Assembly (NCBI GenBank): GCA_963969365.1
Contig: OZ017757.1
Location: 620,001 to 684,000, forward strand
Reading direction: 5' to 3'
DNA length: 64,000 nucleotides
Source: Asterochloris sp. CNOR1
Lineage: Eukaryota; Chlorophyta; Trebouxiophyceae; Trebouxiales; Trebouxiaceae
The notes under the pieces were generated by a model, which ran no database searches, was not told the DNA's origin, and saw only the letters and a program-made list of their open reading frames with translations. This document shows, one piece after another, positions 188 to 62,500 of the stretch (positions within the stretch are counted from its first letter, which is position 1; every line of letters starts with the position of its first letter). The translations under genes were made by a program, and so were the position numbers.

Positions 188-3100
188 ATGGCCACGATGC
201 TGGCTCACCTGCCTGCTCCAACCAGGGAGTATGTGCCACCTGCTGAGGCGCTGCCCACCAGCACAGCACTGGCCTCGCGCATCAGCAAGGAGCCTCCTCC
301 TTATGGCTCTGTGGAGAGGCAGCGCTACATTCCTAGGCGACCAGAGGATTTTGGTGATGGGGGTGCGTTCCCAGAGATCCAGGTAAGCCGATGGCTTCAC
401 TTGCTGTCTGCCAGCTCCGCAGCGTACCTGCTTGATGCACACTGGCACGCAGGTTTGATGGGGTCTCGTGCTGGCTGTGCTGAGAAGTGCTTTTACTCAG
501 TTGCGCCTCCGGCGATTGCGGGGCTACAGCCGGAACCAGCTGTGGATTGTCTACTCCGCCTGTGCTATCAAGTCTGCTTACCAACTCTGCCTGTGATGTG
601 CTTGCCGTCCCTTACCCGCATGTGTAGTCAGGTTGCTGCACATCGTGGGTTTGCCTTCACAAGCAACCTTGCAAGCACAGGACACCGTTACACCTTGCAT
701 CCCATCTGCAGGACACTCAGCATCCGCTTGGGCAAGGGACGCCGTCGTAGCGTCCATGAGTTGCCGTTTCTCATGCTCTGTAGGCGCTGGGAATGGGCCA
801 AGAAGGAGGGATGTGCCTTGAGCATTATATCTATCGAGAGCCTGATCAATTTCTGGCGCTGGCTGACCTGACACTTGCTGTGGCTCAGGGCTCACAGGCA
901 ACAGCAGATGTGCCGCTGCAGCTATATGGCTGGGCCTGGGGAATCATCGCTTCTTTCACCTGCGTTGCAGGTGGCTCAATACCCCCTGGGCATGGGTAAG
1001 AAGGAGAAGGGGGGGGCAGGAGGGGGCAGTGGTGCCAGCAGCACAGGCACGCTGGCCGTCACCGTAAATGCCGATGGGGATGTGAACTATGATGCCATCG
1101 TCAGACAGGGCCGCAATCAAGACAAGATCGTGTACTCTGATCACAAGGCACTGGTGCCCAAGCTGGACAGCCTTACGGAGGTGGGAAAGAAAATTCTTTC
1201 CCTGTCTGGGCAATGTTGTCGCAGCTCAACGCAGGGACATCAAGGTGGCGATGTATTCAAGTTGCACAGCCTTACAGAGCTGGACAGGTGCATATTGTGC
1301 ATCATTGTTCTGGCAGCTGATTGCAGGGATCCCACGTTGGTAGCAAACAGCCATCAGATGGGCAGGAGGCAACTTTGTGTAATGTTGCCATTCTGGCAGC
1401 TGATTGCAGGAAGGCTGTGGTGTGCCCAGCAGAACGAATTTCTCGAGGTGTTCAAGGTGCTTGTTCAAGGTGCTTTGCGTGTGCCCTGCTCAGATGCTTC
1501 TATCTCTTGCTCAGCTAGTTCTGTCCCCGCATCAGTTTCTTTTCCTCAAAATAGGTGCAGCATTTGTGAGGGGCCCGCGCGGCGTGCTGCCAGAGCTTGC
1601 TGCACAGAAATGAGATGGCCCGACAGATCATTCAGGCACCACCTTTCCTGCCCTCTGTCCTCCTCAAGCCTGCACTGTGCCCTGCAGAATTTCGAGAAGC
1701 CTGATGAGGATGAGGTGGCTCAGACCGCCAAGGAGACTGAGGCTGCACTGCTGGCTGTGGTGACCACCAAGCTGCATGCCCAGCAGCCCAAACAGCTGCC
1801 CAAGCAGCCAGGGGACGCCCAGTACATCAAATACACTCCTGCGCAGCAGGGCAAGCAGTACAACTCAGGGGCGGGCCAGAGGATCATCAAGATGCAGGAC
1901 ATGCCAGTGGACCCCATGGAGCCCCCCAAGTTCAGGTGCACTGCGCTGACTTGTAGAGGGATGAGTGTTACGTGTGCTGGTGAGAGCAGGTGGCGCAGAG
2001 GGATCTCGATGTGGCAAGCTGTGCTCATGGCTGAGGAAGATGCACTGCTCTGACAAATGGGTTGTTTCGTGTATGTTGTGGGGAGACAAAGGTGTCGCAG
2101 AGGGTCCCAGTAGTGCTGAACATGCTGGCACGTTAGGCTCTCCCAAGTTTCAGGCGAGCTGCACAACATTGGACAGGGCTGGATGGTGCATGTGCTAGTG
2201 AGAGCAGGTGGCGCACATTGTCTATAGTATGACGCTGGCTCAGTACGCATCAAGCTCACCCGGGTGGTCTGTGGTGTCAGCAGCCAGCTGCGGAAACTCT
2301 CAGCAGTGACCTCAGCACATGCTGGTGCCCTTCCACCCACCCAGGTGAGCTTGCGATGCTGCCAGGTGCAGGCACAGCAAGGTCCTGTCCTGCTCCAGCG
2401 GTCATGGGCCAGCCATAGCGCCTGACAATGTGTTGGTGTTCTCCTGCAGGCACAAGAAGGTCCCCCGCGGCGCTGGCTCGCCGCCAGTGCCCATCATGCA
2501 CTCCCCGCCGCGACCCGTCAGCGTCAAGGACCAGCAGGACTGGAAGATCCCGCCTTGCATCTCCAACTGGAAGAATGCCAAGGGGTACACCATCCCCCTG
2601 GACAAGCGGCTGGCCGCTGACGGGCGGGGCCTGCAGGAGACAGCCATCAACGACAACTTTGCCCAGTTCACGGAGGCGCTGTACGTGGCCGAGCAGACGG
2701 CGCGGCAAGCAGGTGCGTGGGTGGGCTTGCCGTGTGGGCGTGCGCTGCACATGCGGTCATGACCAGGCGCCAGCTTGATGACGGCAAGCAGTCAGCCTGC
2801 AAGCAGGTGCTGTGCGCGCAAGGTATTTGTAGGCGGTTGGAGGCGCGCTTGCCTGCCTGCTGACCGCTTGCCCTCGTCAAGCCGGTGCCTACTCACAAGT
2901 GCATGTCCAGCGCATACCAGGCCTTTGTGTGTGCTTGAAGGCGATGCATGTGGCTGAGGGCACGGCGCAGTAAGCAGGTGCGCAGTCTGGACCAGCTGTG
3001 TTGTTGGGCATAGGCTTGAGGCTGCAGCTGCCTGCTGTATGCTAGGGCATTTGTTTATTTTGAGTTACTGCACATGGGAGGAGTGGATTGCTTGACAAGC

Positions 3101-6100
3101 AGTCTTGGATGGGCTTTACTGTATTTGGTGGGGACAGGGCAATGAGTTGAGCGAAAATGCTGTATGCTGCTGTTCCAGTGGCGCATCAAGCCATGGGTTG
3201 CGTCACCCACATGCAGGGTTGGTATCATCATGGTGATGGTGAGGTGTGCATGCTGCTGGCATCTGTGTGACGGGAATTTGCTGTTGCAGGCAGGGCTAGC
3301 ATGTGGTCAAGCAGATTGTGCAGCAGGCCGGTGTGGAGTTTTTGGAGGTAGTGCGCTGTGGGACAGGCAAAGGGGCCTTGCTGCCATTGCGTGGGCCAGC
3401 GCTGCGCCATGGGCTGGCTGGCAAACTGTTCTATGCTGTGGTACTGTGCTGGCGCAGCAGGAGCAGGGGTGCTGTGTGGCGATTGGGCAGGCAGCTGCTG
3501 TCGCAGGACATGCAGCGGCGTGCCTGGCTGCGGCCATGCCTCTCAGGGTTGTCAGTAGCTGGAATGTTGTCCATAGCAATGTGCTGTGCGGTGGCGAGGT
3601 TGGGCAGGATTTGCAGCATCTGTGATGGTGCTGCCTGCAACTCGTGTTGCCAAGGCAGGACTGCACCAGTACAGGCTGCCTGAGGAAGCCATGCCACGCT
3701 CAGACAGCTTGATAGCCTTGTGGGGGCCAATATAGATTGATCAATAAGAGGTAGCCGGCCCTTGTCCATATGCTCACTGCCTGCAGGTTGATGCCTCTGC
3801 CAAGGTGGCCCAGGTGATGGTGACTTTGCCTGCTTGGCCTGAGCTGTCAATAGGTGAAATCCTTCAAATCGATTCTGGCCCATGAGTGACCCCCCCTGCA
3901 CTGCACTGCCTGCAGTGGAGATGCGCTCCAAGGTGGCCAAGGAGATGGCCATCAAGGAGAAGGCCCAGAAGGAGAAGGCGCTGAGGGAGTTGGCCGACCA
4001 GGCCCGTAGGGAACGTGCGGGCGGCGCGGCCGTCCCCGTCGCAGCCCGCGACTCAGGGGCGCCGGCTCTGGCTGCCGTCAACGGCGGAGGGGGTCTGCGC
4101 ATTGAGGACGAGCTGCCGCCGCCGCCGGGCATGGGGCAGGTGAGTCAGGGCTGCAGGCCAGGCTGGCAGTCTGGCAGTGCCAGATGTGACTATCAGCAGC
4201 TGCCTCAGCTCTCTCTCGGTGTGGTGCCACTTCGTCTTGCAATTGCTGCAGGACATGATCCCTGAAAGGCGCATTGGTGCACCCAGCTGCTCCTGCACGT
4301 CAAACCCTGAAAAGATAGATGGTGCTGTCTTTGCATGCAGGTGCCGCCTCAGAGGGAGCGCCTGGCCCCAGAGGACCGCGAGGAAGCGCGTCACCGTGCA
4401 GAGCTGATGCGCGACCGCAAGCGCGAGCGTGAGAGGGAGCGACGCATCGACGAGCGTGGTGAGGGTTGCCAGTTACTTCGTAGTTCCTTATGAGTGGGTG
4501 CTGTGCTTGTGTCAGCCAGGCGCTGGCGCTGTCAGGGTCTTGAGCTTGCTGGGCAGCTGCGCAAGTTGTGACCAACGGGGCGGAGCCTCAGGCAGAATGA
4601 CGCTGATCTCTGACATGCTATGTTCACTGTGTTATCAAGCTGCAGCTTCATTATGGCACGTCTCATTGCGGCCTGGCTGACACAGCCTGCAGATAGACAG
4701 CTTGTCAGCTTCGACATCAACTATGCGAGCCAGTGTCAGCATCAAGGGCCTCCTGTGCTTGGGTGTTACCCAGACATTAGCCAACTCCTGCTGTGTGCCC
4801 CTGCAGATGGCCACGGCGTGAAGAAGAGTCGCCTGACACGCGACCGGGACCGCGACATCTCTGAAAAGATCGCGCTGGGGCAGGCGGCTGTGAAGCCCAG
4901 CGGGGAGGGCATGTACGACCAGAGGCTGTTCAACCAGGACGCAGGTGCGCAGCATCAGCGTGTTCATTGTGATCTCAGGGTGTCACCAGAAGGTTGCACT
5001 AGGGGGAGCCGCTGAGGTCCACAGCACCCAGGGCGAGTCCGACCGGAGGCTGCTCGATTGGGACATCACATTGGGAGGGCATGTCTGACCACAGGGTCGC
5101 TCAATCAGGACATCCCAATGGACGTCTGAAAGGGTAGGGTATCTCAGCGGATTCCAGGGTGTGGGAGGTGTGCGGCTGGGCTCCAGTTTGAGGAGATTCA
5201 AGCTCTGAGCCCTGTGGCACTGGGCTTGCTCTTGCATGACCTGGGCGCATTGATCTGTTTGATCGATGGGTGTCAGTGCCTGTGCTCCGCCTGCACGTGC
5301 TGCAGAGGCACTGCAGCAGTTCTTTGTGCAGCTCACTGCCATGCTGTGACTTGTGCTGACCGAGTTATTCGTCAAAGGTGGCCTTGCCTTGCATGCTCCG
5401 CGATCACTCAGCCAGGCTGGAGCCCAGCGCCAGGTGATGTAGCCTGCCGATGGAGTGGTCCTGCTGCTGCCTCTGACGCCATTTGGCCACTACCTGCTTT
5501 GCCCTGCAGACACAGCTCAGACCGGTGACGCGGTTGCAGATGCACAAGCCCATTGCCATATCATATTCCTCAACCACAATGTAACCACCTGTGCAGGTGT
5601 GGCCAGCGGGCTGCTGGCAGAGGACGCCTACAACATGTACGACAAGCCCCTGTTTGCGGACAAGGGCAGTAGCCTGTACCGTCCCAAGGCCGCCACAGAC
5701 GACGAGCTGGCAGCTGGTGGCGGCGCAGCTGAGGGGCGCCACTTCAAGCCCGACAGGGGTTTTGCTGGGGTTGACTATGGGGCGGCAACCCGCGGCGGTG
5801 GCGGGCCGGTGCAGTTTGAGAAGGACCAGGAGGAGGATCCCTTTGGCCTGGAGGTGGGTGCTGAGATTCTGGAGAAGACATTGCCTGTGTGGGCGCCCAG
5901 GCATGTGCTTGGCTGCTAGCAAGCCATGGAGTCCTGTGTGAGTGTCATCCTCATCTGCAACCTGTGCTTGCGTGCCCTGTGTCCTGAGAGGTGGGTGGAC
6001 CACACTCATTGCTCCAAGTCAGGTGCTCCTTCAGATCGAGAAGAAGCAGGAAGAGGACAGGCCTTGACTGTGAAGGTCGGCTGCATTGTCGGTGCAGCTC

Positions 6101-7009
6101 ATTTCTGGGCAGACCAGGCAGGGCAGATGATGCCCACACAATGAGTAGGCCTGCCACTTGCTGCAAGCCCACCGCTGCATATGTACCCCCTTCTGCCAAA
6201 GGGGTGTACACCAGCATCTGTAACAGCACATGGGGTCATACACAGGGTTTGTGAGAGGCTGCGGCCCTGACTGAATCCAGACCAGGCCTGAGTGCCTCTG
6301 GCCTTGAGAGTGCAAATGGTGCTGCGCCTGGTGTGGCTGCGGGGGTGATGCATGGTGCTTTGCAAAGCCTTGAGCCAGGCTGGCTCTGTTCAATGCTGGG
6401 TTGCCTGCCACATGATAGCTTCCCTTGTGCCTGACGGAGGGGAGTACTCAAAATTGCAGAGGCTTGGCACTGCAGGTGGGTTTGCGGTTGCCATGCCCTG
6501 GCAGCTGCTCAAATCCAGTTGAATTCAAGGCATACCGCCTTTCATGAGCCACAGCAGCACTTCCTTTCGGTGGAGGATGTAGTCCTAGTAGCATGCACCG
6601 AAGGCCCTGGCCTGCGCATGCTCCTTTGGGTCGTGAACGATTGCACATTGCCTCTGACAATAGCTAATCAGCCATACTAAGTCTGCAGGCCCCTTGCTGC
6701 ACCAAATTGCCTGCCCATACAGGGTCCTGCAGGAACCTCACCAGCATATTGCTTGCCCATGCTGCAGGCTGCCTTTGCCTGAGAGTTCTCCACACAAAGG
6801 CACACGTTGCACAGGCTGCATCATGACCAGTGACTGTGCCTGCTGCCTTGCAGGACTTTGTGTCCCAGCAGAACACCCGCAACAAGAATGCACTGGGCAA
6901 CATTGGCAAGGGGGGGTCCATGGCGGCTGGCGGTGGAGGGGGACGATATGAAGACTATGCTGGCGGCTCCTCTCGCAGCAGGGTTGACTTTGAGCATGGG
7001 CGCCGCTGA
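188..7009 (+). CDS. SKIP: SNW/SKIP-domain splicing factor (SNW1/Prp45 homologue)
   Basis: Nuclear protein of the activated spliceosome (NTC-related) and transcription co-regulator. Nine exons read in one frame: 188-382, 971-1180, 1688-1935, 2450-2712, 3916-4139, 4341-4458, 4807-4944, 5597-5853, 6854-7009. They sum to 1809 nt, giving 602 residues. Family signatures in order: PPPYG then EDFGDGGAFPEI, VAQYPLGMG, YDAIVRQG, the SNW core with SNWKNAKGYTIPLDKR, a basic helical stretch (RSKVAKEMAIKEKAQKEK), RDRDRDISEKIALG, and YDQRLFNQD then MYDKPLF. The C-terminus (ALGNIGKGGSM, ending VDFEHGRR) resembles plant SKIP rather than animal SNW1. I chose the ATG at 188 (MATMLAHLPAPT) because it puts the family's LPAPT motif near the N-terminus; an upstream in-frame ATG at 101 would only add unconserved residues. 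All introns are GT-AG. Several carry degenerate copies of neighbouring exon ends (see findings). Confidence 0.95.
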
Positions 7010-8747: not shown

Positions 8748-11700
8748 ATGCAGGCCCTGGATGTGCATGTCACTGATGCATCCGAGCTGGACCAGCTGCT
8801 GCTACGTGTCAGGTATGAGCTCGATATACTGTAAGATGCTCAGCTCCCTTAATGCAAGACTGAATTTATTGAAGGCCCTGGATGCAGAGGGAAGGGCTGC
8901 GCAGTGCTGCAAGGGGAAAAGAAGGCTTCCTGGGTCAGGTGGGACACCTGCATGAATTTGTTTGCTCAGGTCTGCAAGGCAGGCTGCATCCTGAGCAGAA
9001 GTTGCCAACCACAAGCAATCTGTGCTGCAGCGAAAACGCCCTGTTGGTGTTGACGGCGACAGAGACTGGCAAGAGAACTCCTGTGGGCCTCTTCGCCATG
9101 TGAGCTTGCTGCCGTGATTGCCTCCTTGGGGTTTACGCAACCCTGCCTGGCGACGAACTGTCACGTGAATGCATAACATCAGACGTCAACTCCATAGAGC
9201 CTTCCTCATCTGCCTTTTGCAACTGCAGAGCGCCTGCATCCCATGCCTTTGCCCGCATGCTGCAGCCTTCTTGTGCAGCGTCTGCGCTCGCTGCTCACCG
9301 CAGGCTGCACACCATAAAGCCTTGTATGGCCATGCCATGGTTCGAGCTATCCACATGGCTCCTTGCCATGACCTTGAGAGCTGCCGCCACTGACTGTCAG
9401 ACACTGTAGCAGCCTGTGGCCAGGCCTCTGCATGTTGCATGCTGCAGCTTCCATTCCCCAGGGCTGCCGGAGGATGACCAGAGCTGGGCCACCACCGAAG
9501 CAGACAACCTGGGCTTCTCTGCAGCCAGCACTGGCTGGGCACGCATCGTGCTGGCTGTGCGGCACTATGAGGTCAGGGGAGCGTGGTTGCTGTTTCTGCG
9601 GCCAATGATCCACACACATGCGTCCTGGCTGGCTGTGCAGCGCTAAGGCAACCAAGGCTGATTCGCTCCTCTTCCGCTGCCAGTCATCCTGCTGGCTGTG
9701 TTGCAGTATGATGTGAGCACGGCCCAATCTTCACCAGACTGGCTGCCACACCCGCTTGTGCATGCAGTTAGGGGGCTGGCCTCGCTGCTCCGTGGGCCCC
9801 TGCATTGTCGGCAACACGACTGGGCCATCGCCAATGGCTGACCATCAATGGGTCATCGCCAGCATTACTGACGCCTGCACTGGCAAACCCTGTTTCAGCA
9901 GTTGCAACCTGTTGGAGCCAGCTACAGTCGTGCTTCTGCCTTGCCACAAGCATTGCTGACTCAGTACTGGTGAATCAGGGATTGCTCATCTGCCTGCAGG
10001 TGCTAGCCACCTCCAGCAGGTCCCTGCCTTGCTGCATACCCAGAGAACACCTCTCCTGCCTGCAGGCTGTGGTGCCGTGCGCCATGCTCTTGTCCAGAAC
10101 CCCCACATAAAGTGTATTTAATTGGAAACAACAGAAATGTTGCATCAGGCAGCACACCTCCAGCCTGCAGGTATCTGCGGTGTGTGCCACAGCGCAGCGA
10201 GCCTGTCTTCATGCAATTTCTGCTTGCTGGAAAGAGCACTCTCCCTTCCTGCAGGCTGTTGCAGTGCGTGCCATGCTCAGGCAGGCCTTCATCCAGATGC
10301 CCCACCTGAAGACCATCCTGCTGACCCAGAGCGAGCCCCTCACCGCAGCAGTTCCGGGCCTTGCAGGCCACTTCACGCCTGCCTCTCAAGCCCCCAGCGG
10401 TGGGTGCCACCTGTATGAGTGCAGCCGCGGGGCTGTGATGCCCCAGCTGAGGATCCGCGTGGCCCGTGTCGACGACCACGATGATCTGCTGCCCCTGGTG
10501 CAGCAGGCAGCCCTCAGGTGAAACAGCTGATGCATTAACATGACAAGGCAGGCCTCGTTTGGGGCTGGCAACTGGCCCTTGGGGTCACTCAACACAGGGT
10601 GGTTCATCCCTGCCACACCTGCTTGCTCACTTGGCTGTTTTCTTGCGGTATCTTGGGGTTAGACCGCCTCCTGCAGCAGGCCCTCCCTCCTGCAGCCTGA
10701 GTAGTCCAAGCTGTCCGGGAGTCTGACTGCTGAGACATTGGTCGCAAGTGTCCCTGGTGCAGCAGGCAGCCCTGGGGCTCGCCAGGCTGAGTGTCTTGCA
10801 ACCCGTGGGTTGGAATGCAAAATCTGGCACTCCATTTATGCATGCCTGGGGTTAGCAGCAGCTGAAAAGCTTTCTCCTGCAGCCTGACAGGCGGCATTTG
10901 CATCCATCTACAAAGACCTGCTGCTCCTGGTACAGCAGGGAACCCTTAGAATTGCAGCTGCAACTACTAGGACCCAAGTCCGGCTTGTCACCCAGCATAT
11001 CACTCTGTGATGCCCTGCCCCAAGCCAAGCTGCCCGATGCATTGATAGGGCAGCTCCAACTCCCTCCAGAGCAGCGGGGCGCATACAGCGTCCTTGCCCC
11101 ATCTCCAGCACTAGTGCCCCCGTCTGGTAGTTGTGTTGACTCAGATCTGCTGCCTGTAGGTGCCCTGCTCTAGCGCAGCTGCCCAATGCTGAGGAAGGGG
11201 TGGAGGACCCATATGCCCTGGCGCACCTGATTGCCAGCCAGGATGCAACGTCCTGTGTGCTGGTGGCCGAGCACAAGGGGCGTCTGGTGGGTCTGCTAGC
11301 CGGTGAGGGTGCTGCATCATCCGCAGCATCGCACCAAGGGCGCCTGCTGGGCCTGCTGGCAGGTCCAGGCTGGACTTGGAGCTTCACTCCCTGGGTGATG
11401 GTGGTTCTTGGTGGCCTACTGTCTTGCACAGGAACTTTGCCGGTGGTGGCAGGCACTGCATGCAAATGGCTGCAAACAGGGCTGGATCTGCCAAAGTGCT
11501 CGCCTATGCCCTGGTGTTGCATGCTGGGTCTGGTTGCAGTGGCCGCTTGGTGAGTCAGCTGACAGGGCTGACCAGCCTGCATAAAAATGATTCCGTCATC
11601 TGCAAGCTGCACATGCCCTGACGAAGTAGATTGTCATGACTGGGGCGCAGCACACTGCACTGTGTTTGACACATGCGTTGTCTGATGGTGCAGGTACCTC

Positions 11701-14700
11701 AGACGTGGACGTGAGGCCCCTGCTGCGAGGATTTGACCTGCATGCTTTTGACCAGTTCATGGATGCAGAGGACTATGAGACGCGACTTAAGGCTGCCATG
11801 GCGCAGCGCACCCTGCGCAGTGCAGCCAAGGCTGCAGCAGGTGAGAATGCAGCTCGCACTTAATTTTTTGCCTCGGGGGTGGGGCAGAGCAGCTAGCTTG
11901 CTGCCCAGTGCAGCCTGAACGGTGCAGCAGAGGCTGCAGCATGTGGGCATGAGTGGTGAAGCTGAGTTGATGGCTACTGAGGCATTGAGAAAGCAGCAAG
12001 CTTGTAGCTAGTGGCCCAGCATGAGCAGAGGAAGCAGCAAGGGGGCATGACGGTGCAGCTGAATGGCCCGCCATTGAGGTGGGGCCGAGCCATCAGCCAC
12101 ACGGCCCGAGGCGTTTGCAACCTGTGCAGCCAGCAGAGTAAGTTGGGCTGAGTGAATGACAACACCGATCAGCCAGGCGTTGAGCACAGCAGCATTGTTG
12201 GCAGATAGTACGAAATAGGCATGACTCTGGTAGCAGCTGATCGTGTCTGCATGGACAACAGCTGAGCCTGCAGCTCTCTGTCACGGACTGCACCAGAGGC
12301 CGCTGTTGTGGGAAAAGGGGGGACAGGGGATGGTTCCTTCGCATGAATACATCGGCCTGCAGCGGCCATCCCTGCCTTGCAGCATGCGGCCCAGCGCAGC
12401 CCTGGAGAGGCTGCTGCTTATCGTGTGAGGGGTTACTGACTGGCGCAACCTGCACAGTCTCCCCAACAGGCAGCTGCAGGTGGCTGAGACTGCTCATAGC
12501 CTGCTGTTGGACCCTACAGCCCACCCCAGTGTTGGAGCAGCAGCAGTTTCAAGAGTCTAGATCATGGACAATAGTGAGCCCCTTCTCCCTCATGGATTGA
12601 ACCTGCTACCTTCCAGACCCTGCTGTGCCTCACCTGGAAGCAAGCTTGCAGCATCTCACCTTTTGCTGCAGCAGACAAGGCCGCAGCAGGCGAGCAGGAG
12701 GCAGGTGGCCCCGCTGGCAGCGCCGCAGAGCCCAGGGTGCCTGAAACGCCGCAGGCAAGCACCCCCCCACACATGGCTGGTGCTTACTGTGTGTACTGGT
12801 GTCACGCAAGCAGGCTGTCTGTCTTTGACACTGTGTGCAGACGCAGCTTCCCAGTCACCCCCAGCACCCTTGCCTGCTGCCCGCACACTGCGCTGTTGCT
12901 GACAAAGTCTCACCTGGCATCCTGCCTGTGTGTTTCCTCGTAGCACATGCCAAGCAGCTGCAGACTTTGTTCCTCCCATGGCCTGGTCACAATCACATGA
13001 TGCTCTGGTGCCCATCCCGCTCCTGCCAAGCCTCTGCGGCAGCCTTTTGTTTCATAAAGCACCACATCCTATGTCTCTCCACCTGAGCTTGACGTGCTGT
13101 GCAGGGGTTGCTGCCCAGTCCCCGCCGCAGGTGGGCCATGCCGTGCAGCTTCAATGTCACCTTCAAGCAGACAGGGGAAGTCCCAGGTGAGGGATCGGCA
13201 GGAGGACGCTGTCAGAGCTTGCCTGCTGCACTTTAGCACCTGACGTGCAGCAGGCCACTCAGCCGAGCGTCTTCTGAGGTGACAGGGCCTGGCACTGCCA
13301 CAGCTTGCCTGCTGCACTCAGGCACTCAAAATGAAGCAGGTTTGATACACAGGAGCATTGTCAGGTGGGGCCTGGCTGGCTGTGCTTGAAAGGGCATGTC
13401 TAGCCAAAGCTTCGGCTGTTGGTGGCATTGCCCTTCAGCCACACTATTGACTTGTATGACAGGCAGACACCTCTCAGGTGGTGCGTGGCAAGCTGGTGCT
13501 ATCAGAATGCCCGAGTGCTGCACTTTGACACAAAGCAGGCAGTCGTCTGCTGTGACACTGCTTGAGAGGCCTTGGCAAAATGGTGTCAGTATGCATTCAG
13601 GCCACAGAAGGCATGCAGCAAGCAAGCAGGACGCACCGCTGTAGAGCATGCTGTAGCCATTGCTATCGCTGGTGTTGCACCCTTAAAGTGGGCCCTGCCT
13701 GCTGGGGATGCCAGTCACTACTAATGACCCAGCAGCGCTGCTAAAGTCCCCAATCTCTTGCTGTGCCTGCAGGCAAGAGCACTTTCATCCGCAGAGGGGT
13801 GCCCGCCCCAGAGCTACCCCCTGGGCTGCTGGAAGATGTGGTTCCTGAGCCTGAGGACATTAACCAAATTGTCCAGGTGAGCATGCCTGCCGCCGTTTGA
13901 ATATGCTTCTGTGGGCTCTGATTGCCTAGCAGTTTGCCCCGACCACGCTGTGCATGTAAGCTGAGGTTGAGGGGCAGGCAGCCCCTAGGTGCATGTGTTC
14001 TGCTGAGCCTGATCGTGTCAGCTGTCTACTCTATATCACGCAATACAGCCTGGCTGCTTTGCCTGATTGTCTTTGTCCCCTGGGTGCAGGAGCTGCAGGA
14101 GGGCGCAGCTGCCCCAGAGTGCCTGGCATTTGCTGTGACCATGCTGTGCATGGACGTTGAGTTTGAGGGACAGGCAGCAGCGCTGCTGCGCACGGCCTTC
14201 GATCTCATCCCTGCTAGGGACTTCTGCCTCTGTGAGATGTGGTGCACCTGTTGCACTCCAGTTGCCTGTGCTATCTGCTGCCTCTGCCTCCTGGGAGCTG
14301 CATAACGCATGCACCTCCATACATTGCACATGCGACGTCGCCCAGTCTTGTGCACTGGTGGACAATGCATGAGCGCACAGAGCCCTAGCTGCACTGGCTG
14401 CCAGCACTGGATCTCTCGGCAGGATATGCTGGCTGCTTTCAGAAATGCTAGGCTTGCTGCATGGACTCCCTCAGCAGCATCTTCCTGTGCCAGCCAGTCT
14501 GCGCCTCTCAACCCCAGGCATGCTGCAGGCACGCTGCCAGAGGACTGCCCCGAGCACCCCCTGCTGCGCCAGTTTGTCAGGCTGCTGCCCAACCCAGCGG
14601 CTGACTTCTCCGAGGTGCTCTACGTGTTCCAGAGGCATGGCTTCCTGGAAGACTGGCAGGTGAGGCCCATGACAGATCCACACAGACATTGCTGCCAACA

Positions 14701-17700
14701 CTTCGCAGTTCACTACCAGAGACGGCCTGGAGCACAGCTGTAATGGCAAAGACGACTGTGAGAAGCCATATCATGGGGGCACAGCTTCCACTACGAATTG
14801 ACATCTGCCATAAGTGCTCAGCAGCGCGGCTCATGGCCGAAGAGGGTCAAGCAGCCTGGCATCGTCGCTCGCAGCCAAATATGCTTGAGCAGAGGTGCTG
14901 TGTTGCTTGGAACCAAATGGCTTGCCCTGCAATGCCGTCATGCATCCTGCAGCCATACAAGCTTTGCACTGCTCTGGCATGCCATGGTGGCAGCCGTGCG
15001 TTTGGTGAGGCTCAGGCTGCTGGCACACGGCTTTGCAGCTGGCACTCTGCACATCTTCAGGCGGTCTCTATTTGTGCTGCCTGCAGGTGCTGCTGGGACT
15101 TGGAGGCAGTGGTTGCCCGGAGAGGCTGCCCTGAAAACATGTCTCACATGCAGACACCACCAACGTACAGCGTTTGAAACTGACATTACTCTGCCACATG
15201 CAGGTGCGGTCAGCTACGCAGAACGATGTGGAGGCGGTGACTGCCTTGCTGGCAGGGCTAAGCAGCCGCTACGACGTCTTTGGCTCGTTCCTGAATGTCA
15301 TTGAGACGGACGGGGTTGCTCTGGTGGCAGAGGTAGCTGGCCAGGTAAGAATCCATACCACTAGCCAGTAGCACCAAAGGCCTGATTGATGCTGATGCTG
15401 CTGCTGCTGCTGCAATGCCGCCCCTGCACCCGCCCCCCCAACACAATTGCAAATGGCACAAAACTGCCTCTGAGCTTGACCCATCTTGATCCTGCTGTGC
15501 AGTTGATGAGCCTGCTCACACTGCAGAGTACATGGCACATGGGGCGGCTGCATACATCAGTTGAAGGGTCTTTGACCAGGTCGTGTGCTTGTGTGCAGGT
15601 CGTGGGCTTGCTCACGCTGCAGTTCACAACAGACCTGCAGCAGCTGCAAACCCACTTTGACCTGTCAACTGTGTTGGACGCAGCACAGCACGACCCCCTC
15701 ACAGGTTTTGCAGATATGGAGGTCTGCTGCATGAACCCTATCTTTGCCCATAGGTGAGGTAATCTGCCACATTGCCTACCCTTTCTCAACATTGTTTTGC
15801 AGCCTGCAGCAGTGTGACCAGGCCCAGCACTGGGAGATGTGCACAGCCAGAGCCTGCCACCTGCCTTTGTTTTTCAGGAGGAGCCACCACTGCTCTTCCA
15901 GCTGAACACGATTGCAGCTAGCCCCTTTCTTTTCATGGTCCCTCTCAGGCCCCTTGCACTTCTCCAGCCAATGCCCCTTGCTGTGGGCCCTTCCATCCTG
16001 TGCAGCTTGCTATCAGGTTGCAGAGGCCGCGCTGAGAGCCTCAATCCTGCTGTTTGCAGGACAGGCGAGTTCTTGCTGGAGGCCATGCGCAAGCTCAAGC
16101 GCACCTGCCTGCTACACCTGCTTCCTCCAGACCAGGTGGCCCCTGAGGTGCTGAGGGACTTCAGGCAAGCCAATCCCTTCCTGCGCTAGTGGCCAGATCA
16201 CTGCATGACAGCTACCCATGGACTAGCCTGCCTCAGAGGTGCCAAGGAGTTCAGGCAAGTCAGGGGCCTGTCTCTTGACCCTGCTGTTGTATGCAAGGAG
16301 CCTGTCACACAGAAAGAACAATGCTTGACTACATCAGAGGTGCTGAAGGACTCTGGGCAAGATTGTGGTCAACCTCAGCTTCTGTGGCATCTGCTCGCGG
16401 TAGTGCCTGCATGCAGAATCAAGCGCAGCTTCTGCTTACTTCTTGATTTCTGGTGCCTGTGCTGACACAGGAGGTAGATGTGTCCCTCCAGGTAACTGCC
16501 AGCGCGTCACCTGCACTAAGACAGCAAGCAAATGTGCTGACATTTGGTGTGTTCACTGCCTGCAGGCTCATGTTTGCGCACCTGCGCTCCTCATGCTGAC
16601 ATGCTTCCTCACTCGTGCATGCATGAAGGTGCTGGCATGCAACCTGCACTCCTGGGGTGGGGCTTTGTCCTGCACTGCCAGGGAAGGTAATACATTGCTC
16701 TGGACCGCCCAACCCAGCCTCCGGGCCCCAACCAACATGCGCTCTTGTTTGCCTGCAGGCAGGTGCCAGCGCGTCACCTGCGCTCATGGGCCAAGGATGA
16801 CGAGGGCGCCTGCGCACTGTTTGTCTATACACACAGGTGGGCTTTCACAACCTCACTGAGTAACCTAGGATACTTTGGCGAGGGCTGCCGCAAAGCCTCT
16901 GTGTGATGAACTGGGCATGTGGATGCAGGCGCTGCAGCAGGCCTCTGTTTTCCAGCTAGGTCAGCACCAGATATGGTTGCCAAGCTGACGTGTCTGGGCA
17001 GCGCCCTGAAGGGTTGCTGATAAATGAAGCAATGCTGTGCAGCAAGTAAGGCAACTCAAGTGAGATGCAGCCATGCCTCACTGCTTGTCAACTCCATACT
17101 GCACAGGATGCCGTCGGCCAGTCTGCATAGGGCAGCTGAAGCCTGCTTGCACTAGCCTCAGCAGATGCAGGCGGCATGTCACACCATATGCTGCTCAACA
17201 ATCTGCTTGCTTGGGCGCAGGTGGGCGCAGCATCCCCAGGCAGGCTGTACACACCCCCCTGCTGCCTGGCTAGCCTGGCAGATCCCAGCAAAGCCGTCCT
17301 CTAGAACCCAGCAAAGCCACGACTCTCCTGCCACAACCTGCCAGCCTTCACCGGTCTAGTGACCCCATTTTGTCATGGGTGCAGGTGGCCATAAGGCCCA
17401 TGGCAGGTCGCCCTTCTAGAGATCGGTACCTCAACTTCAGGCTGGGTCATTCTCAGTTCCCCCTCACATCTTTCAGATTGTTCCACTGCCAATCATGCAG
17501 GTGGGCACACCGCCCTCGCCGGGCTGTCAACACCCCCCTGCTGGTGGCCGGCGCCTCTGAGTGTGGCCTGGCTGCACTGGAGCGCCTAGTGCTGCACCCC
17601 CAGCTGTGCTTCAACTCCCTGACCCTGCTGGCCCCAGGAGGGGTTGCCTGTGGGGGCGTGGGCTCAGACCTGACTCCCACCATGCTGGCGCAGCTGGTTA

Positions 17701-20700
17701 GCGCACATGCCCTTGCCGCTTGTGATCCTGTCGTTGTCAGAGCCGACAGACATCGGAGGGGGGGGATGCAACTGAGTCCTGTAATTGTGATTCAGCTGCT
17801 CGCCAGCAGGGACTGCACAGTTCTGCAGTTGCCGAACCCGCATGTACTGCCATTCAGCGCCAAGATGGTGGCTTTTTATGTACAACAGCGCATCTGTTGT
17901 CCGCACTGGCTGCATGAGACTACTTGCAGGGGGCTGGGCCCATGGCTCTGGACCAACTCCTGCAGAGCTTGCCCGGAACATGCTGTTCCTCAATGTCGTG
18001 GCTGTAAGCAGTGGCTGCTTTACCGCCTGCACATGCTGCCTGCAGGGGCTGCACGCCTCAGTCACCACCATTGACGCTGAGCTGGTGGGGCTGGACCGCC
18101 AGCAGCGCGTGGTTGTGCTGTCCACCGGGCAGCAGCTGCGCTACAGCCTGCTGCTGCTGACAGCCGGCCTGCAGGACCAGACGCTGGCACGCATTGCTGC
18201 TGGAGATGAGGCGGAGGATGCGCCAGTGGCCAGTGCGCAGGGCTTGGCTGAGCTCACCGCCGAGGTGAGCAAGCGAGCATATCATAATAAGTGCACAGGT
18301 GGTCGAGTTGCCCAGCAAGGACTCCTCAACTCAGCTCATCTGCCACACTCTGCAGGCCCTTCAGCTGCAGTCAACTGATCTTCCACACTTCCTGCAGGAA
18401 GCAGCCAAGATGGGCAGCATCATCGTGTATGGCAACACCCTGGAGGCCTATGACGCAGTTGCTCAGCTGGAGGCACTGCAGGTCAAGCCTGGCACGCTCC
18501 GGCACATCCTGCCGCCCGGGCCGCAGGGCGGCATGGTCTCAGTCCTGCACGACTGTGTGCGGATGGCAAAGGCTGAGCTCCCGCCCACTGAGGTGGGTTC
18601 TGAAGGCTTCCCGGCTCTTGGTCACTTGTGTTGGGCCTGTAGCAGCTGATCAGCTGCTGCTGAGATGGACCTGCCCGCACTAGTGCCTGCACTTCATCCT
18701 CAAGCACTTGCCCCCTTTTCTTGAAGCACTGGTCAGTTGCGGCCTGCAACCTGACCCGCAAGGAGCAATGTCTCAAGCATGGGCTGCTGTTGTGCAGACG
18801 CTGCAGCTGGTCAGCGCGCGGGCGCTGTATGGAGGCGAGAAGGTTGAGATGGTGTTCCAGGACCCAGCAGCAGGAGCAGCAGCTGGCTCTGGCCCATCAA
18901 GGGGTTCGCCGCCTGGGCCTGCTGGTGAGTGCGTGGGGCACAGCCCACCTCGACCATTCTGCAGAGCAGGTGCGGGGCTTAGAGGTGCCTCAGGTCTCGG
19001 CAGAGGCTCTGGCGCAGCAGGCATCACGCTGCCTCATAAGAATACGCTCTTGCTGCGTCTTTGCAGCAGCAACTGCTGGGGCTTCAGGCGCCTCAGGACC
19101 CGCCTGAAGTAGTAGCTGGCTCTGACGCAGCAGGAGGTGCGCTGCCTGGACCTGCTGTTGAGTGCATGGGGAGAAGCTCCAGGTGCAGTTGCAGCAGCAG
19201 CTGCTGGGGCTTGGGGTGCAGTGGGATGTGCAGCCTGTGCGTTTCCTCATGAGGGCGTGGCCATGCCTCAAATGAAGATGCGTATCATGCCTTTGTCTGC
19301 CTCAGCATGGACATGACCATGTGAGGCCTGGCTGTGTGGCCTTGCGCACCTTCCTGTATATGCTTGCAGCACATCATCCACCCAGCTGATGCCTGCACAA
19401 TTGCGCCATCAGAGTGGCCTACTACTTTGCAATGCAGTGCAAGCCTGACGTGTTTTGGGTAAGCATCATGCATTTGCATTCCTGATAGGCCGTGCGTCTC
19501 AGCCACAAACAGCCCTCATGGCAGCCTCATTGCACCCTGCAGACCAGTCAGCAGCAGCCTGTAATGCAGCCAGCACTGCAGAAGCTCCGTCTGAGGACAG
19601 CAGCATGCACTGCTGTGAGGCATGCACGCAATGCAGGCAGATGCCTCAGCTGTGAGGCTCATGCCTCACAGGCCCCAATCCAGTACCTCTTTCAACAAGG
19701 TGCCTGTATCTGCGCTGCAGAGCAGCCAGCTGGAGGCACTCGTGTAGCCAGCACTGCAGACGCCCCATCTGAAGATGGCAGCACACCGCGCTCCGAGGGA
19801 CAGCCCGGCATGCAGACAGTGCAGGCAGACCTTCTGGTGCTGGCAGACGACCCAGACGTGCATCCCAGCCTTGCAGCCTGCTTTGCCGCCAACAGCCTGG
19901 TCTGGGATGGGCGCTTGGTGGTTGACGCACAGCTGCGTACCAACGATGACCACATCTATGCCGCTGGGACTCTGGCCAAATTCTCTCGCAGGTGGGCAGA
20001 GGCTCCCCAACCTTGACTGCAGAATGCCTTGTTGCCCACCCAATACAGGCGCCTCTTGTGGTCTGTCAAATGGCTTGTGCTGGTCATGCAGGCTCACCTG
20101 GTCTGTGGAGCACCTATGCGTCCCGGAAATCCACTGTTTGCCGGCCCTAGAGAGGTGTCGACTGCTGCAGCTGCATTGCAGCAGCCATCACCATGCTGAT
20201 GCCACATAGCAACAGGAAAAACGCCTGAACCCTTGTGAGGTCATACCGTCTTACCCTGCAGGCATTGCGCCCACCTGCTGCTCCAGCAGTGTAGTAGTCA
20301 GGGCCAAGTACAATGCCGCCTTGCATGGCAGACCTGTACATGCCATGATGCCGCCATGACTGAATCCTGCTGATGGCTGGCCATTGCAGATATGGTGCCC
20401 ACCTGCTGCACCAGTACTACAGCAGCCAGGATCTGGGGACGTGCCTGGCTGATGCGGTGGTGAGGCTTTTCACAGACCCGCTGACGTCCAGGTGAGACAT
20501 GTGCTGAAAAAACCGCGACTGTTTTACAGGGTCTGGCCGACACAGCAAAAGGGCCCTTGAAGGTTGGCTCTGCAGACATGCCTGGCAGTGAGGCATTGGT
20601 GCCGCTGTTCACCATCCATCATGCATGGTAGTGCCTTAGTGGGCCTGTGACTGAAGCAAACGTGCTGTTTAGACATGTGTTGCCCAGGTGAGAGCCTGTG

Positions 20701-22252
20701 ACTAGAAGATGAATTGGCTGACACAGCAAGTAGGCAGCCATGCAGGAACATTCTGTCTGCATACCCAGTGGCAAAGCAGTGGTGCAAGCCGCCACCAGTC
20801 CTCACGCAGCATGCATTGATGTCCAAGCGGTCCCCTTGCAGATGCACAGGCCCATGCAACCTGGCTGGCTGACACCGCCTGACAGCATCAACCAGGGGTT
20901 CAGGGCCTGCTGGGGGAGAGAGCATGTGGCTTTCAATGCTGGCGCTGCCTTCCCTCAGCTGCTGCCATGCAAGATGAAGTTGATCACCGACGTGAGGAGC
21001 GCTCAGGAGTCTGCTGTGCTAGCAACGCATGTCTGCTCAGGACTTGGCTGTGCTGGTCGTGACAGCCTCTTTCCTGGCCAAGTGAAGTTTTGATGACTGC
21101 CTGCACTGCAGGAGCGACTCCCTGCCTCAGCTGAGGGGTGCCAGAGTCACGGGGGCGCGCCTGCCAGGGGGACGCGTCTTTGCCTTTGCGGGGCTGGGCG
21201 CAGCGTTTGCGCTACCCACACTGGAGGCGCCTCAGGTGAGGGCCCCTTGCATGGGCGTCAAGGGGATGGGGAGCGCTCTTGGCTGACTCTGAGCGGCTTG
21301 GGGAGCCTTCCCTGGCACCTCATCCATGATGTGGTGTTTTGCATCAGCAGTGAGGGGCAATGGATGACCGCGCGCGCTGCTGTATGGTTGAGGCACACTG
21401 CTATGGCGGTCGTACTGCCCACAACGGAAGCACCTCAAGGGGTCCCCTTGCAGGGGTTCCACTTGGGTTGTTCATTGACCCAAGATGAGCTGTACCTGCT
21501 TGAGTCCGGTGAGGTCCCTTGCCTGGATGCAACTTGGGGACACGTGTTGCCCCCCAGAATGAGCTGCCTCTGCCTGAGTGACATCCAGGCTCTAGCTGGA
21601 CTGCTGACTGCTGGCACAGATCAAGCAGAGCCCTGCATGTTGTGCATGCCTGCACGAGAGAACATCAGGGGACAACTGTGTCCAGCACAGGCAGCAGCAA
21701 TGGGTGGCAGCTCCCTGATTTGTCGGTCAATCTGGCGGCTTGACAGGGCTGCACAGCCATATGCATCCAGGCAGGCAGGCTATTCCAAGATTTGAGCCCA
21801 TCTTGTCATTTCGTGGCTTGCAGGGAGGGCACGCGCTGTACTCAGCTACTGCAGAGGATGGCTTCTGCCAGCTGAGCACAGATGCCACCGAAGTGGTGCA
21901 GGCAGCAATATGCTGCCTGCCAGTCGCAAGACAGTTCCCGCTGCGCAGGCTGGGCGCCCTGCCAGGCCTGCCCCTCAGCTACCTGAATGACATGCTCAGC
22001 AAGTACGATCGAGGGCGGGTGTTGGATCTGTGGGACTACGTCAGCGAGCCTTGGGCTTCCCTTCTGTATCATGATGCCTTCCCAGCGCTGCACAGCCGCC
22101 TTCTGGACACAGCTGCCTTGGAGCGGCAGGGTCAGGCCAGCAGGGCAGTGGCTCAGGCGTTGACAGCGGCGAGGGCGCAGGATGCAGTCATTGACTTTGT
22201 GAAGCAGAACGCTGCTGCGCTGCCCCGCTATGCTGTGCTAACATCTGCGTGA
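8748..22252 (+). CDS. CFAP61: Cilia- and flagella-associated protein 61 (FAP61)
   Basis: CFAP61 is a subunit of the calmodulin- and spoke-associated complex at the base of axonemal radial spokes. Recognisable exon blocks on one strand: 8748-8812 (MQALDVHVTDASELDQLL), 9031-9099, about 9466-9570, 10258-10519 (ending in RVARVDDHDDLLPLVQQ), about 11198-11300, 11695-11841, 13773-13876, 14090-14235, 14528-14659, 15205-15343, 15598-15753, 16061-16164, 16759-16830, about 17500-17695 (LLVAGASECGLAALE, the FAD/NAD-binding-like half), 18045-18264, 18400-18592 (IIVYGNTLEAYDAVAQLEAL), 18793-18931, about 19802-19990 (WDGRLVVDAQLRTND, YAAGTLAKFS), about 20391-20490, 21110-21235, and 21824-22252 (LWDYVSEPWASLLYHDAF). 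The GNAT-like N-terminal half and the dinucleotide-fold-like C-terminal half follow the animal protein in order. Some small exons between blocks are not resolved. The intron 16165-16758 starts with GC. I see no stop or frameshift in the main blocks. Confidence 0.88.
13215..13321 (+). repeat. Short intronic tandem repeat in CFAP61
   Basis: AGCTTGCCTGCTGCACT occurs at about 13217 and again at about 13302 with similar surroundings, an 85-bp-period duplication inside an intron. No coding signal was seen. Confidence 0.5.
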
Positions 22253-43665: not shown

Positions 43666-43713
43666 GACGTGCTGCAGCTGATGCATGCTTAAGCCCTGAG
43701 CTGGGCTGTGCCA

Positions 43714-46547: not shown

Positions 46548-46559
46548 GGATGTGGAACC

Positions 46560-59500: not shown

Positions 59501-62500
59501 GCTGCCGCCGCCTAGGGCGCCTGCTTGACTCCAGCTGGCTTCAGTGACAGGATGCTGCTCGAGGTGGACCAGCATCGTGGCCGATTATATGACGCTCATG
59601 AGCTTTCCTAAGATGGCAGTGGCCCTCAAATGACTGACATGAAGCTCGCTTGGTGGCCTGCATGCCTCTAACATCTCCATGCAGGTGACGTGCCATGCCA
59701 TCTGCAGAATTTCTCAAGCTTCACGTCATCTATACCGCTGTGGAGATCTTTGACAAAGTGAGCAGCCTGATGGTTGCTGTGTAAAGCCATTGTTTTAGTA
59801 TCTTGCTGCCACTCCATGATGCTGACAGTATGCACCATGTTCATTCCAGATCACAATGAAGATGTTTGCACATGACTATGTGCCGCTGTGCATCATGCAG
59901 CATCAGCTGCTATGGTGCTGAGCCTTTGACCTTGTGTGCTGCCAGACTTTGCCATGGCATGCTTACGCTCTCTGGCACCTTTGCCTGCAGATATTCTGCT
60001 CCTTTGGCATTGATTGCCTGGAGGCTCTGTCTGGCACCTGTACCATGTATCTCAGCAGACGCAGCAGCAGGCACGTGCCATAGTTTGCTCTGCGGCTCCC
60101 AGGATTGGTGCTTGCGTGACGCTGTGTGTGTCCCACAGCCACGCCTCTGCACGGGTGCAAGGCAGACCCCTGAAGACAGCTGTGGGTAGCCACACCGGCC
60201 GCAAGCAGCATCAGGAGCTACTTTGCAGCCATGCTACGGGTGCCACAGAGAGAGCTATGTGCAGGCCCAGGGGCTGTTGCAATTGCTTATCGACATGAGT
60301 ATTGACTGTGAGTCACATGTCAGGCCAGTCTGTTTCAACCGGCTCAGGCTGCTGTGCAACAGCAGGTTGACGTTCCCTGTCCTGCTACCACTGCCTCACA
60401 GCCAAACATCTCTGCAATTGTGCATGCAGGCGCAAGCGGTTGAGGCAGCTGCTGTGCGACACCGGGGTGGCCTTCCTGGTGGTGCTGTTGCATGGCAGCG
60501 TGATAATGTGCCAGGGCATGGCCTTCTCAGTGGCTATGAACAGCAAGCGCGGCAACGCTCTGGTGGCCCTGTTGATTGCTGCCAATTTTGTGGAGATCAA
60601 AGGTGCGCACAACAGTCAGTTGGTACAAAGTTTCCATCTGGGCAGGCAGGTTCTCATGTGAACAGCAAGCACGGCAACGTTATGGTGGCGCTGCCAATCT
60701 TGACGAGATGATACGTAGGCTGCACATGCTTCTGCGTCCATTTTGCAATGAGCAAGTGATCGGAGGCCTGCATGGCCGCTCATGGAAGGTCTGGGTTGCT
60801 GCTGGGTCTGCCTGTTGTTGCGGGCGCAGGGCCCGCTTTGCACTTTGCGTCTGTTCCTTGGTGCAGCTGCAGGCACACTCCTGCCCATCTTCTGACAGCA
60901 GGCAACCTGTTCCACTCGCCTGTGCCAATGCAGCCAGCACCTCGAGTGCGCGTCCCTCCCCATGCTGCAGGCACACTCCGGCGCATCTCCTGACAGCAGC
61001 ACCCACGCTCCACTCGCCTGGCTTGCTGCAGCCAGCAGCTCAAGTATATGCCCCTTCTCATGCTGCAGGCACAGTGCTGAAGCGTTTTGACAGCAGCAAG
61101 CTGTTCAAGCTGACCTGCTCAGACATTGTGGAGCGTTTCCACCTGCTCGTCTCGCTGTCATTCGTCCTCGTGGAGGACATGGACAACTCAGGTGAGAGCT
61201 TGACTGAAACCATCTGGCAACTGCAGTGTCTCTCAAAAGCTGCACATGATCAGCGGAGCAATAGCATTATGCAGGCCTGAGATTTGGTGGCAGCAACAGA
61301 GTGCATGCACACGGCAGGCTCATTCAGGCCTTTCTCAGCACGGGTGGTCACCTGCCAGCTGGGCAGTGGCCGCATGCTCACGTGACTCAACCTGAGCGTA
61401 TGTGCGCTTGAAGGCTGCTTTTTACAGACCTGCTGCCCTGCATGCTCTGCCATGAGCGTCACCTTATGATAGCGAGGCACAAGGACCCCACTCTGAGTTG
61501 ATGCTCTGCCATGCTCCTCCTGCTTCAGGCACTGGCAGCATGTTCAGCCTGCCTGCAGAGATGCTGTCCTTCATCCCTGCTGCTCAGCATATTCAAGCTG
61601 CCTGTAGGCCACTGGGTGACCAACGCTACTGTTCCTGCTACAGCACGCCGTCTGCATCTTTGCCAGTCAGGCCTGGTTGCTTTGTTGCACACAGGATGCT
61701 CAGGCAGTTCAGCCTGCCAGCAGGCTGCTGGGTGCCTCAGGCAATGTTTATCCTCCGCTGCGCCAGCGTCTTTGCCTGTAGGCGCTGGGTGTACATCAGC
61801 CTCCTCAGAAGCTTACCCCAACTTTTGCATTGTTCCCAGCTTGATGAAGATGGATGTACCAGTTGGGCCCGCGTGCAGGCCGCTGGGTACCTAATGCAGA
61901 GCTTCTGCGACGCTGCGCATACGTCTTTGCGGCTGAGATGGTCATCGACGTGATCAAGCATGCGGTGCTGGGCAAGTTCAATGAGATCCGCCCAGGGGTG
62001 TATCGGGAATTCATGAAGGTGTGAGCGCTGGATGCGGCTTGTTGTCCTGTCTTGTCTGCTGCTGTGGCAGCTAGGGGCTGCATGCATCTGGTGGCTGCCT
62101 AAGGGGCACCACAGGCTTGCACACCACACGCCTGGTCTTTGCCAACATGTGCTGTAACTCTTTGCTGGTACAGTTGGGAGCTGCCTGCTTGGGGACTCTG
62201 TCCAGCAGGCACCACAGGTTTGCGCCAGCTTGATTGGTGTCTTTGTGCTGGCAGGCATTCGGTGCTCAGTGCACACAACAACCTTGGCTCCTGTCTGCAC
62301 AGCACATGCTGTGCTCTGCAGCGACGGCCTGCAGAGAAAAGTAATCAGTAATCACTCAAGAAAGATGTCATCCCACCTGATTGGCTGGGGTGCATGGCTG
62401 TGTCTACACATGAGCACATTTGCTGCATGCCATGCAGACGACAGCTCCATCATGCCACCACCCAAGCACGTCATATACCCTGAACTGCAATGACCTCCAC

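Follow-up and report, generated by a model that had tools for sequence, protein, structure and literature searches.

Decayed copies of exon edges in Asterochloris introns as likely remains of small tandem duplications

Introduction

Messer and Arndt in 2007 and Vaughn and Bennetzen in 2014 reportedly identified short tandem duplications as the chief origin of small insertions, and Schiml et al. in 2016 are said to have traced tandem duplications in plants to repair at staggered breaks or neighbouring nicks. For the human genome, the accessible text of one study describes small tandem duplications as the commonest short insertions, arising at breaks with complementary overhangs, and links CST/Pol alpha-primase to tandem duplications from break repair (PMC8355091). 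Tandem genomic duplication is also presented, in the accessible parts of two papers, as a route of intron gain, the AGGT model (PMC3443670, PMC4974935); similarly accessible excerpts deal with tandem exon duplications, unannotated ones included (Ivanov and Pervouchine 2022, PMC9013439), and with novel introns in Drosophila (PMC2891723). Among the matches listed from this literature on intron and exon duplication, of which parts were available and from which most subscription papers fall outside coverage, decayed copies of exon edges were not described as a genome-wide pattern. Such copies, here called echoes, are the subject of this study of the green alga Asterochloris sp. CNOR1. The analysis was centred on a window, the whole 64-kb stretch at positions 620001-684000 of contig C12 (OZ017757.1), for which an earlier note had described exon starts or ends recurring as diverged direct copies in the adjacent introns of at least six genes.

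Results

Short-range direct repeats in the window and beyond

Repeats were sought in 244 kb of the genome (56.4 Mb, 21 contigs), made up of the 64-kb window and, from each of the 18 large contigs (C1-C18, 2.0-4.5 Mb each), one additional 10-kb stretch (L-numbered) at bases 500001-510000. An ungapped self-comparison was used to count direct and inverted pairs at offsets of 20-500 and 501-981 bp, with a score of at least 100 and also of at least 85. At the higher threshold the window held 36 direct pairs at offsets 20-500, compared with 1 inverted pair, and no direct pair at all at 501-981, while the 18 stretches held 122 direct pairs (20-500), 3 inverted pairs, and 7 direct pairs (501-981). At the lower threshold, direct pairs were commoner at the shorter than at the longer offsets in 16 of the 18 stretches (L007 gave a tie, L014 fewer); inverted pairs at the two offset ranges numbered 19 and 15 in the 18 stretches, and 7 and 7 in the window. 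The excess thus lay in direct orientation and at short range, with little or no excess of inverted repeats. Moreover, a banded gapped scan of the whole 244 kb (score at least 90) returned 189 pairs, compared with 4 at long control offsets (1500-2080) and 4 after a dinucleotide shuffle. Given that direct repeats were in excess both in the window and in the 18 stretches, they are spread over the sampled genome, beyond this window; the exon-edge echoes are confirmed as real and are not confined to it. Two other procedures were set aside: self-BLAST returned few near-diagonal repeats and undercounts them, and a gapped scan with lenient scoring produced long meaningless alignments, in which shuffled sequence equalled real sequence in score, and was replaced by the banded scan.

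Echoes at splice junctions

The exons of SKIP were placed by hand; all others came from a simple ab initio gene finder self-trained on the same 244 kb. Its splice matrices were plausible (CAG/GTGAG donor and CTGCAG/G acceptor, the slash marking the junction), and because its gene starts, gene ends, and weak exons are unreliable, strong exons alone were used. In a Pfam spot check, 10 of 10 echo-bearing exons, picked from 47 because we thought them recognisable, matched at 0.001 or better, 2 of them below the family's curated cut-off.

For the junction test, 80-mers centred on the junctions of exons with a score of at least 18 and a length of at least 60 bp were compared with the adjacent 400 bp, flanks that may extend into neighbouring exons. 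This was the check that the earlier note had proposed, and when it was run, matches to a junction's own flank (score at least 100) were found for 14.9% of donors (n=154) and 19.1% of acceptors (n=152), far above the 0.29% of donors and 0.39% of acceptors matching other genes' flanks; reverse-complement matches were 0 and 0. Deep-intron 80-mers scored at least 100 in 5.3% of 151 and 4.7% of 148 cases, compared with 0.37% and 0.37% in their controls. A stricter scan took the edges (up to 60 exonic bases) of 198 confident exons (score at least 16) as queries against flanks of up to 500 bp, trimmed at neighbouring confident exons; edges too near stretch ends and weaker exons were omitted, and whole-exon copies were not specifically sought. 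Of the 186 donor and 186 acceptor edges scanned in this way, 27 and 28, respectively, had a decayed copy in the adjacent sequence; these 55 of 372 confident edges lay on 47 distinct exons and in 14 of the 19 sequences. The dimensions given in the earlier note, copies of 30-75 bp lying 60-280 bp away, broadly hold, the offset quartiles of the 55 echoes being 105, 131, and 219.5 bp.

Four of the six genes that the note had named bore echoes. In SKIP, echoes scoring at least 90 were present in 4 of 8 introns, or in 6 of 8 with the inclusion of two pairs at scores of 79-80, where about 1 pair in 10 is due to chance. Clear echoes were also found in the CFAP61 region, where the upstream exons are gene-finder predictions and the Pfam domain match is limited to the gene end, and in the GT32 and TAPT1 genes. 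The gene taken as 'GT-A-like' (PF03407, 27-30 kb) yielded no pair of at least 80, the best single pair scoring 75, and the coiled-coil gene was not established: repeats are present there, exon edges were not placed, and coding repeats are possible.

Several echo-bearing exons are supported by homology. The SKIP protein, joined from hand-placed exons and open in frame, matches 8xi2_R (SKI-interacting protein SKIP) at 9e-181, and in this alignment the query is without extra residues at the echo-bearing exon joints. An exon of RPN11 (L009:2283-2456) matches 8amz_V over its whole length at 1.6e-30, and a RuvB-like 2 exon (L015:8653-8853) matches a solved structure over its whole length; both are secure as exons and have echoes on both sides. 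Within L009 1984-2725 (minus strand), the start of the RPN11 (PSMD14) exon is copied 261 bp upstream and its end 291 bp downstream, and the donor copy still reads CAACAG/GTGAGC.

Decay of the copies

According to the earlier note, the copies contained both coding and intronic bases. This was found for 39 of the 55 echoes, which span the junction, and not for the other 16, which are exon-only; both splice bases were aligned in 38 of the 55. Mismatches between exon and echo amounted to 20.1, 16.0, and 24.3% at codon positions 1, 2, and 3, and to 19.2% in the intronic part. Among the gaps in the alignments, 46 of 50 were not a multiple of 3, and stops made up 5 of 633 aligned codons. When exon, spacer, and echo were read through, an in-frame stop was met in 40 of 55 cases, and 15 stayed open. 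The nearly flat codon pattern, the gaps out of frame, and the frequent stops therefore indicate that the echoes decay as non-coding DNA; coding constraint on both copies was not seen for the echoes as a group, and single echoes could differ, as in the 15 open cases. An apparent preference of the offsets for multiples of 3 (27 of 55) disappeared when they were measured at the junction (13, 7, and 19 for spanning echoes; 7, 6, and 3 for exon-only echoes).

The splice dinucleotide was unchanged in 12 of 17 donor and 17 of 21 acceptor echoes, compared with about 65% expected from mean identity, and an intact GT or AG was present in 11 of 17 and 16 of 21, respectively. The decoy splice sites anticipated earlier do exist: 28 of 38 echo sites scored at least 3 on the splice matrices, compared with 17-18% of all GT/AG. 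Judged from these sequence patterns, the copies as a group behave as decaying non-coding DNA, often with a plausible splice site. A paralogue search intended to polarise an echo covered one exon, which was its own sole match.

Size of the repeated unit and intron length

Repeat spacings peaked at 80-140 bp. Among 147 pairs (score at least 95, offset 60-400), a third copy lay between the two at p<=.05 in 40 of the 63 pairs with an offset of at least 140, and in the 102 pairs without such an intermediate the median spacing was 107 bp (quartiles 92 and 133). Since most wide-offset pairs contain intermediates, the basic unit is taken to be about 107 bp. Some of the youngest pairs are arranged head-to-tail, their copy length nearly equalling the spacing as expected of tandem duplications (121 bp at a spacing of 119 in L008, 62 bp at 65-67 in L003); other high-identity pairs are short, 20-35 bp. 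Among the few young duplications, and likewise head-to-tail, is a 68-bp unit with an exon end and its donor, present in three copies (93-96%) at L013 545-748.

An echo lies in 26 of the 137 introns that are flanked by confident exons; the median length of these 26 is 515.5 bp, compared with 276 bp for the rest (n=111). This difference fits growth, but longer introns also offer more search room, so that the comparison is confounded.

Excess at exon edges and age of the copies

Confident exons cover 15.5% of the bases, the 'outside' class including exons missed by the gene finder. With respect to these exons, the 189 gapped pairs comprised 98 with one copy touching an exon and the other outside (46.0 at random), 5 with both copies touching exons (16.1 at random, four classes summed), and 86 with both copies outside (127 at random). 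A simulation was set up in which duplications were blind to position, events within an exon or comprising a whole exon were rejected, junction-spanning events were kept, and exons were conserved. At scores of 90, 100, and 120, the observed rates (donor/acceptor means) for junctions and deep introns were.193/.090,.170/.050, and.131/.024, and those simulated with ages of 0.15-0.35 were.230/.102,.188/.078, and.148/.042; the corresponding junction/deep ratios were 2.1, 3.4, and 5.5 (observed) and 2.3, 2.4, and 3.5 (simulated). Other settings gave ratios of 0.9-1.0 (activity up to the present), 1.4, 1.6, and 1.8 (ages 0.1-0.3), and 4.8 to 19 (ages 0.25-0.45).

Among the real pairs at offset 60-140, 5% were at least 90% identical. 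The simulated share was 20-23% when activity was constant and 0-1% for bursts with ages of 0.15-0.25; a further simulated burst (age 0.25-0.35, many indels) was uninformative, since about five pairs survived in it. Duplication at a constant rate up to the present was rejected, as it gave no junction bias (ratio about 1) and too many young copies. Taken together, the identity spectrum and the junction bias make the real pairs look like a mixture in which old events are dominant. Under this model, most events are probably old, at about 0.15-0.35 neutral substitutions per site, and the process would have been more active in the past. Because the simulation parameters were chosen by us, these ages are rough, and the scarcity of young copies is the safer statement. 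By our reasoning, recombination that collapses young copies would be insufficient on its own to make them rarer than old ones. The earlier note had overlooked this skew towards old copies, and is corrected here.

Features of the window and uneven echo density

The exons, echoes, and neighbouring genes placed in the window are collected in Table 1. A 24-bp stretch resembling a miniature intron (GTAAGC...TTGCAGG) occurs beside two predicted exons at 35838-35861 and 35930-35953, 92 bp apart and with 92% identity. Echo density differs strongly from gene to gene: the DUF3431 gene region (7000-8700) and the PF03407 glycosyltransferase region (22700-31000) are unlike their neighbours in being almost free of repeats, with one pair (score 75) in total. 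Among the additional stretches, L014 (C13:500001-510000) is the one with the lowest GC content (52.3%) in the sample, and it lacks direct pairs of at least 85 at offsets 20-500. It may be of different origin; in Asterochloris glomerata, the accessible part of one report describes a viral insertion that is low in GC and poor in introns (PMC6652019).

Table 1. Exons, echoes, and predicted genes in the window (window coordinates)
Feature	Position	Strand	Details
SKIP/SNW1 gene	188..5853	+	hand-placed exons, joined frame open, homologue match
SKIP coding exons	188-382, 971-1180, 1688-1935, 2450-2712, 3916-4139, 4341-4458, 4807-4944, 5597-5853	+	
Further predicted SKIP exon	6854-7009	+	
SKIP exon 2 end	1159..1184	+	echo 1258-1283, offset 99, 85% over 26 bp
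SKIP exon 3 end and intron start	1925..1997	+	echo 2142-2215, 76% over 74 columns
SKIP exon 3, second copy	1934-2002	+	repeated at 2038-2104, 70%
SKIP exon 4 end with donor	2674..2735	+	echo 2939-3001, offset 265, 73%; weaker intermediate 2787-2810
SKIP exon 5 acceptor/start (3904-3948)	intronic echo 3775..3820	+	83%
SKIP exon 7 end	4866..4940	+	echo 4990-5064 (65%); 4903-4940 also at 5073-5111 (82%)
CFAP61-region predicted exon	9448..9571	+	donor echo 9685-9717
CFAP61-region predicted exon	10255..10517	+	donor echo 10910-10949, acceptor echo 10044-10089
CFAP61-region predicted exon	11694..11840	+	donor echo 11903-11951
CFAP61-region predicted exon	16759..16836	+	acceptor echo 16479-16517
CFAP61-region predicted exon	17501..17696	+	acceptor echo 17217-17264
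CFAP61-region predicted exon	19760..19991	+	acceptor echo 19542-19640
CFAP61-region predicted exon	21112..21235	+	donor echo 21406-21456
CFAP61 dimerisation domain PF23150	open frame 21719-22252	+	Pfam match
Exostosin GT47-domain predicted gene	30480-33190	-	Pfam; coordinates from gene finder
GT32-like (Gly_transf_sug) predicted exon	38589..38810	+	acceptor echo 38458-38495; PF04488 on joined prediction
PH-domain predicted gene	54310-56184	-	Pfam; coordinates from gene finder
TAPT1 (DUF747) exon	60430..60602	+	donor echo 60665-60693, acceptor echo 60336-60386; PF05346
TAPT1 exon 61069-61191 acceptor region	intronic tandem copy 60866..61001	+	98-bp period (Tandem Repeats Finder, TRF)
TAPT1 exon 61879-62018 acceptor/start	intronic echo 61705..61775	+	offset 155, 73%
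TAPT1 further copy	61518-61679	+	about 115 bp upstream

Discussion

The echoes are local and direct, they decay as non-coding DNA, they are in excess at junctions, and young copies among them are scarce; the two regions tested are not dispersed. We consider it likely that they are the remains of small tandem duplications, with a median spacing of 107 bp, that were blind to exon borders. In the proposed mechanism, tandem duplications of pieces of about 107 bp would strike genes regardless of where exons begin and end. When the duplicated piece spans a donor or an acceptor, the exon would still be defined by the copy adjoining it and the protein would be unchanged, while the spare exon edge and splice site would pass into the intron and decay there as non-coding DNA. 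A piece duplicated inside an exon would mostly be purged by selection, and one duplicated inside an intron would leave two copies that both decay. Since selection preserves the exon member of a pair, exon-intron pairs outlast intron-intron pairs, and exon edges therefore look favoured. At the DNA level, the literature would suggest staggered breaks or paired nicks, filled in and then end-joined, as the cause. We infer the duplication event itself, the direction from exon to intron, and the growth of the intron. The tandem-duplication reading of the earlier note survives as far as it concerned local, direct, junction-spanning copies; targeting of exon edges is not needed, and two of its genes were not established.

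Several points weigh against this explanation. The decayed pairs align over part of their spacing (median 0.58 in the 102 pairs without intermediate), and their likeness ends abruptly, the rest of the unit being without residual similarity. The 5% of real pairs that are at least 90% identical exceed the 0-1% of a pure burst aged.15-.25, and the strictest observed ratio, 5.5 at a score of at least 120, lies above the 3.5 of the matching simulation. Moreover, simulated ages, indel rates, and unit size were our own choice, so that the age is fitted rather than predicted; exons beyond SKIP and the domain-checked ones rest on a self-trained predictor; and the pre-duplication state is represented by no relative in the genome collection. 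With regard to the abrupt ends, a weak collinear continuation was seen in the real pairs (flank score of at least 80 in 13.4% of 202, compared with 6.1% of 1010 controls), and simulated tandem copies that had decayed uniformly gave flank values at the same background and approached the low coverage as well. Since simulated tandem copies are also sharp-edged, sharp edges are no argument against tandem duplication.

The same sharp edges bear on the idea that 30-60 bp of nearby sequence were copied into a break as short templated insertions, without duplication of a whole unit. That would explain why the spacing is poorly covered and why there is little likeness past the aligned part, but the simulated decayed copies look no different in this respect and some young cases are head-to-tail. 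Templated insertions are expected in both orientations, whereas inverted repeats show little or no excess, and we regard this origin as rather unlikely. Another possibility is a process aimed at splice junctions that would favour exon borders, such as breakage connected with R-loops or splicing, or repair in which spliced RNA serves as primer. Junction queries do exceed deep-intron queries 2.1, 3.4, and 5.5 fold, where the blind model yields 2.3, 2.4, and 3.5; yet deep-intron repeats too are far above control (5.3 and 4.7% against 0.37 and 0.37%), donors and acceptors are affected alike (27 and 28 of 186), and conserved exons together with old ages yield most of the bias without targeting. A junction-specific process is thus not required, as intron-internal repeats are also in excess and the blind model gives much of the bias, and we judge such targeting unlikely.

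Tandem exon duplication, in which the echoes would be alternative or mutually exclusive exons still in use, finds some support in the splice sites: 28 of 38 echo sites score at least 3, and 10 of the 38 equal or beat the real site. The gene finder itself called one echo an exon, the TAPT1 pseudo-exon 61724-61777, whose inclusion costs the DUF747 match only 2.2 bits (230.9 to 228.7), and in 15 of 55 cases the frame stays open from the exon across the spacer into the echo. Against this stand the nearly flat codon-position pattern, the 46 of 50 gaps that are not multiples of 3, the in-frame stops in 40 of 55 cases, and the alignment of SKIP to its homologue without any echo-derived insertion, and continued use as exons appears quite improbable. 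Intron gain, in which an exonic piece containing AGGT is doubled and the stretch between the copies becomes the intron, is a recognised mechanism that starts from the same raw event (PMC3443670, as far as its accessible text goes). It predicts that either end of the intron resembles the exon edge on the far side. Nevertheless, projected echo junctions fell at the opposite predicted intron end (within 3 bp) in 0 of 53 cases: 43 lay inside the intron and 10 on the far side of a weaker predicted exon; another 2 echoes were without a predicted neighbour. In addition, 39 of 55 echoes carry intronic as well as exonic bases, and since they include intronic bases, the intron already existed; gain of new introns is accordingly very improbable as the source. 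The earlier note had itself raised the objection of a dispersed repeat family, to which an introner-like element adjoining exons by chance may be added. No supporting point was found for it: two echo regions (2120-2225 and 4985-5130) matched only themselves in the 56-Mb genome, searched with a tool that skips very common words, and other genes' flanks matched at 0.3-0.4%. We give this possibility next to no credence.

Why intron length should vary among lineages when transposons contribute little remains to be explained. Under blind tandem duplication, conserved exon edges serve as reference copies, so that the share of small duplications in intron growth becomes measurable in one genome. The expected frequency of junctions with a decayed twin follows from blind duplication combined with selection on exons, and the observed frequency is close to it. 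It is conceivable, though we lean somewhat against it, that an episode of intense tandem duplication of about 100 bp, which has since abated greatly, contributed a large part of the intron DNA, left about 1 in 7 splice junctions with a decayed twin, and acted as a one-way ratchet of intron growth in which exon edges donate and introns accept. If so, it would have left a large stock of decoy sites available to intron sliding, alternative splicing, or mis-splicing. In practical terms, gene finders can call decayed twins as exons, which is a warning for annotation, and the echoes provide natural decoy splice sites whose ancestry is known, as a set ready for use.

Among known systems, the echoes resemble insertions by short tandem duplication in being short, local, direct, and scattered through the nuclear genome. 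They differ in being mostly decayed and in being recognised largely through the conserved exon edge; their density, 189 recognisable pairs in 244 kb, is a figure for this genome alone. Repair of staggered breaks or nicks would likewise give head-to-tail duplications in one orientation, although the unit of about 107 bp is deduced here from decayed copies. With intron gain by the AGGT route the echoes share tandem duplication that includes splice signals, with the surplus DNA spliced out, but here existing introns would have been lengthened, and the copies do not lie at the opposite intron end. As in tandem exon duplication, exon-like sequence is found in the neighbouring intron; here, however, the copied piece is one edge of an exon together with the splice site, and its decay is that of non-coding DNA. 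The echoes of Asterochloris sp. CNOR1 are thus probably a dense case of a known type of mutation, mostly old and made visible by conserved exons.

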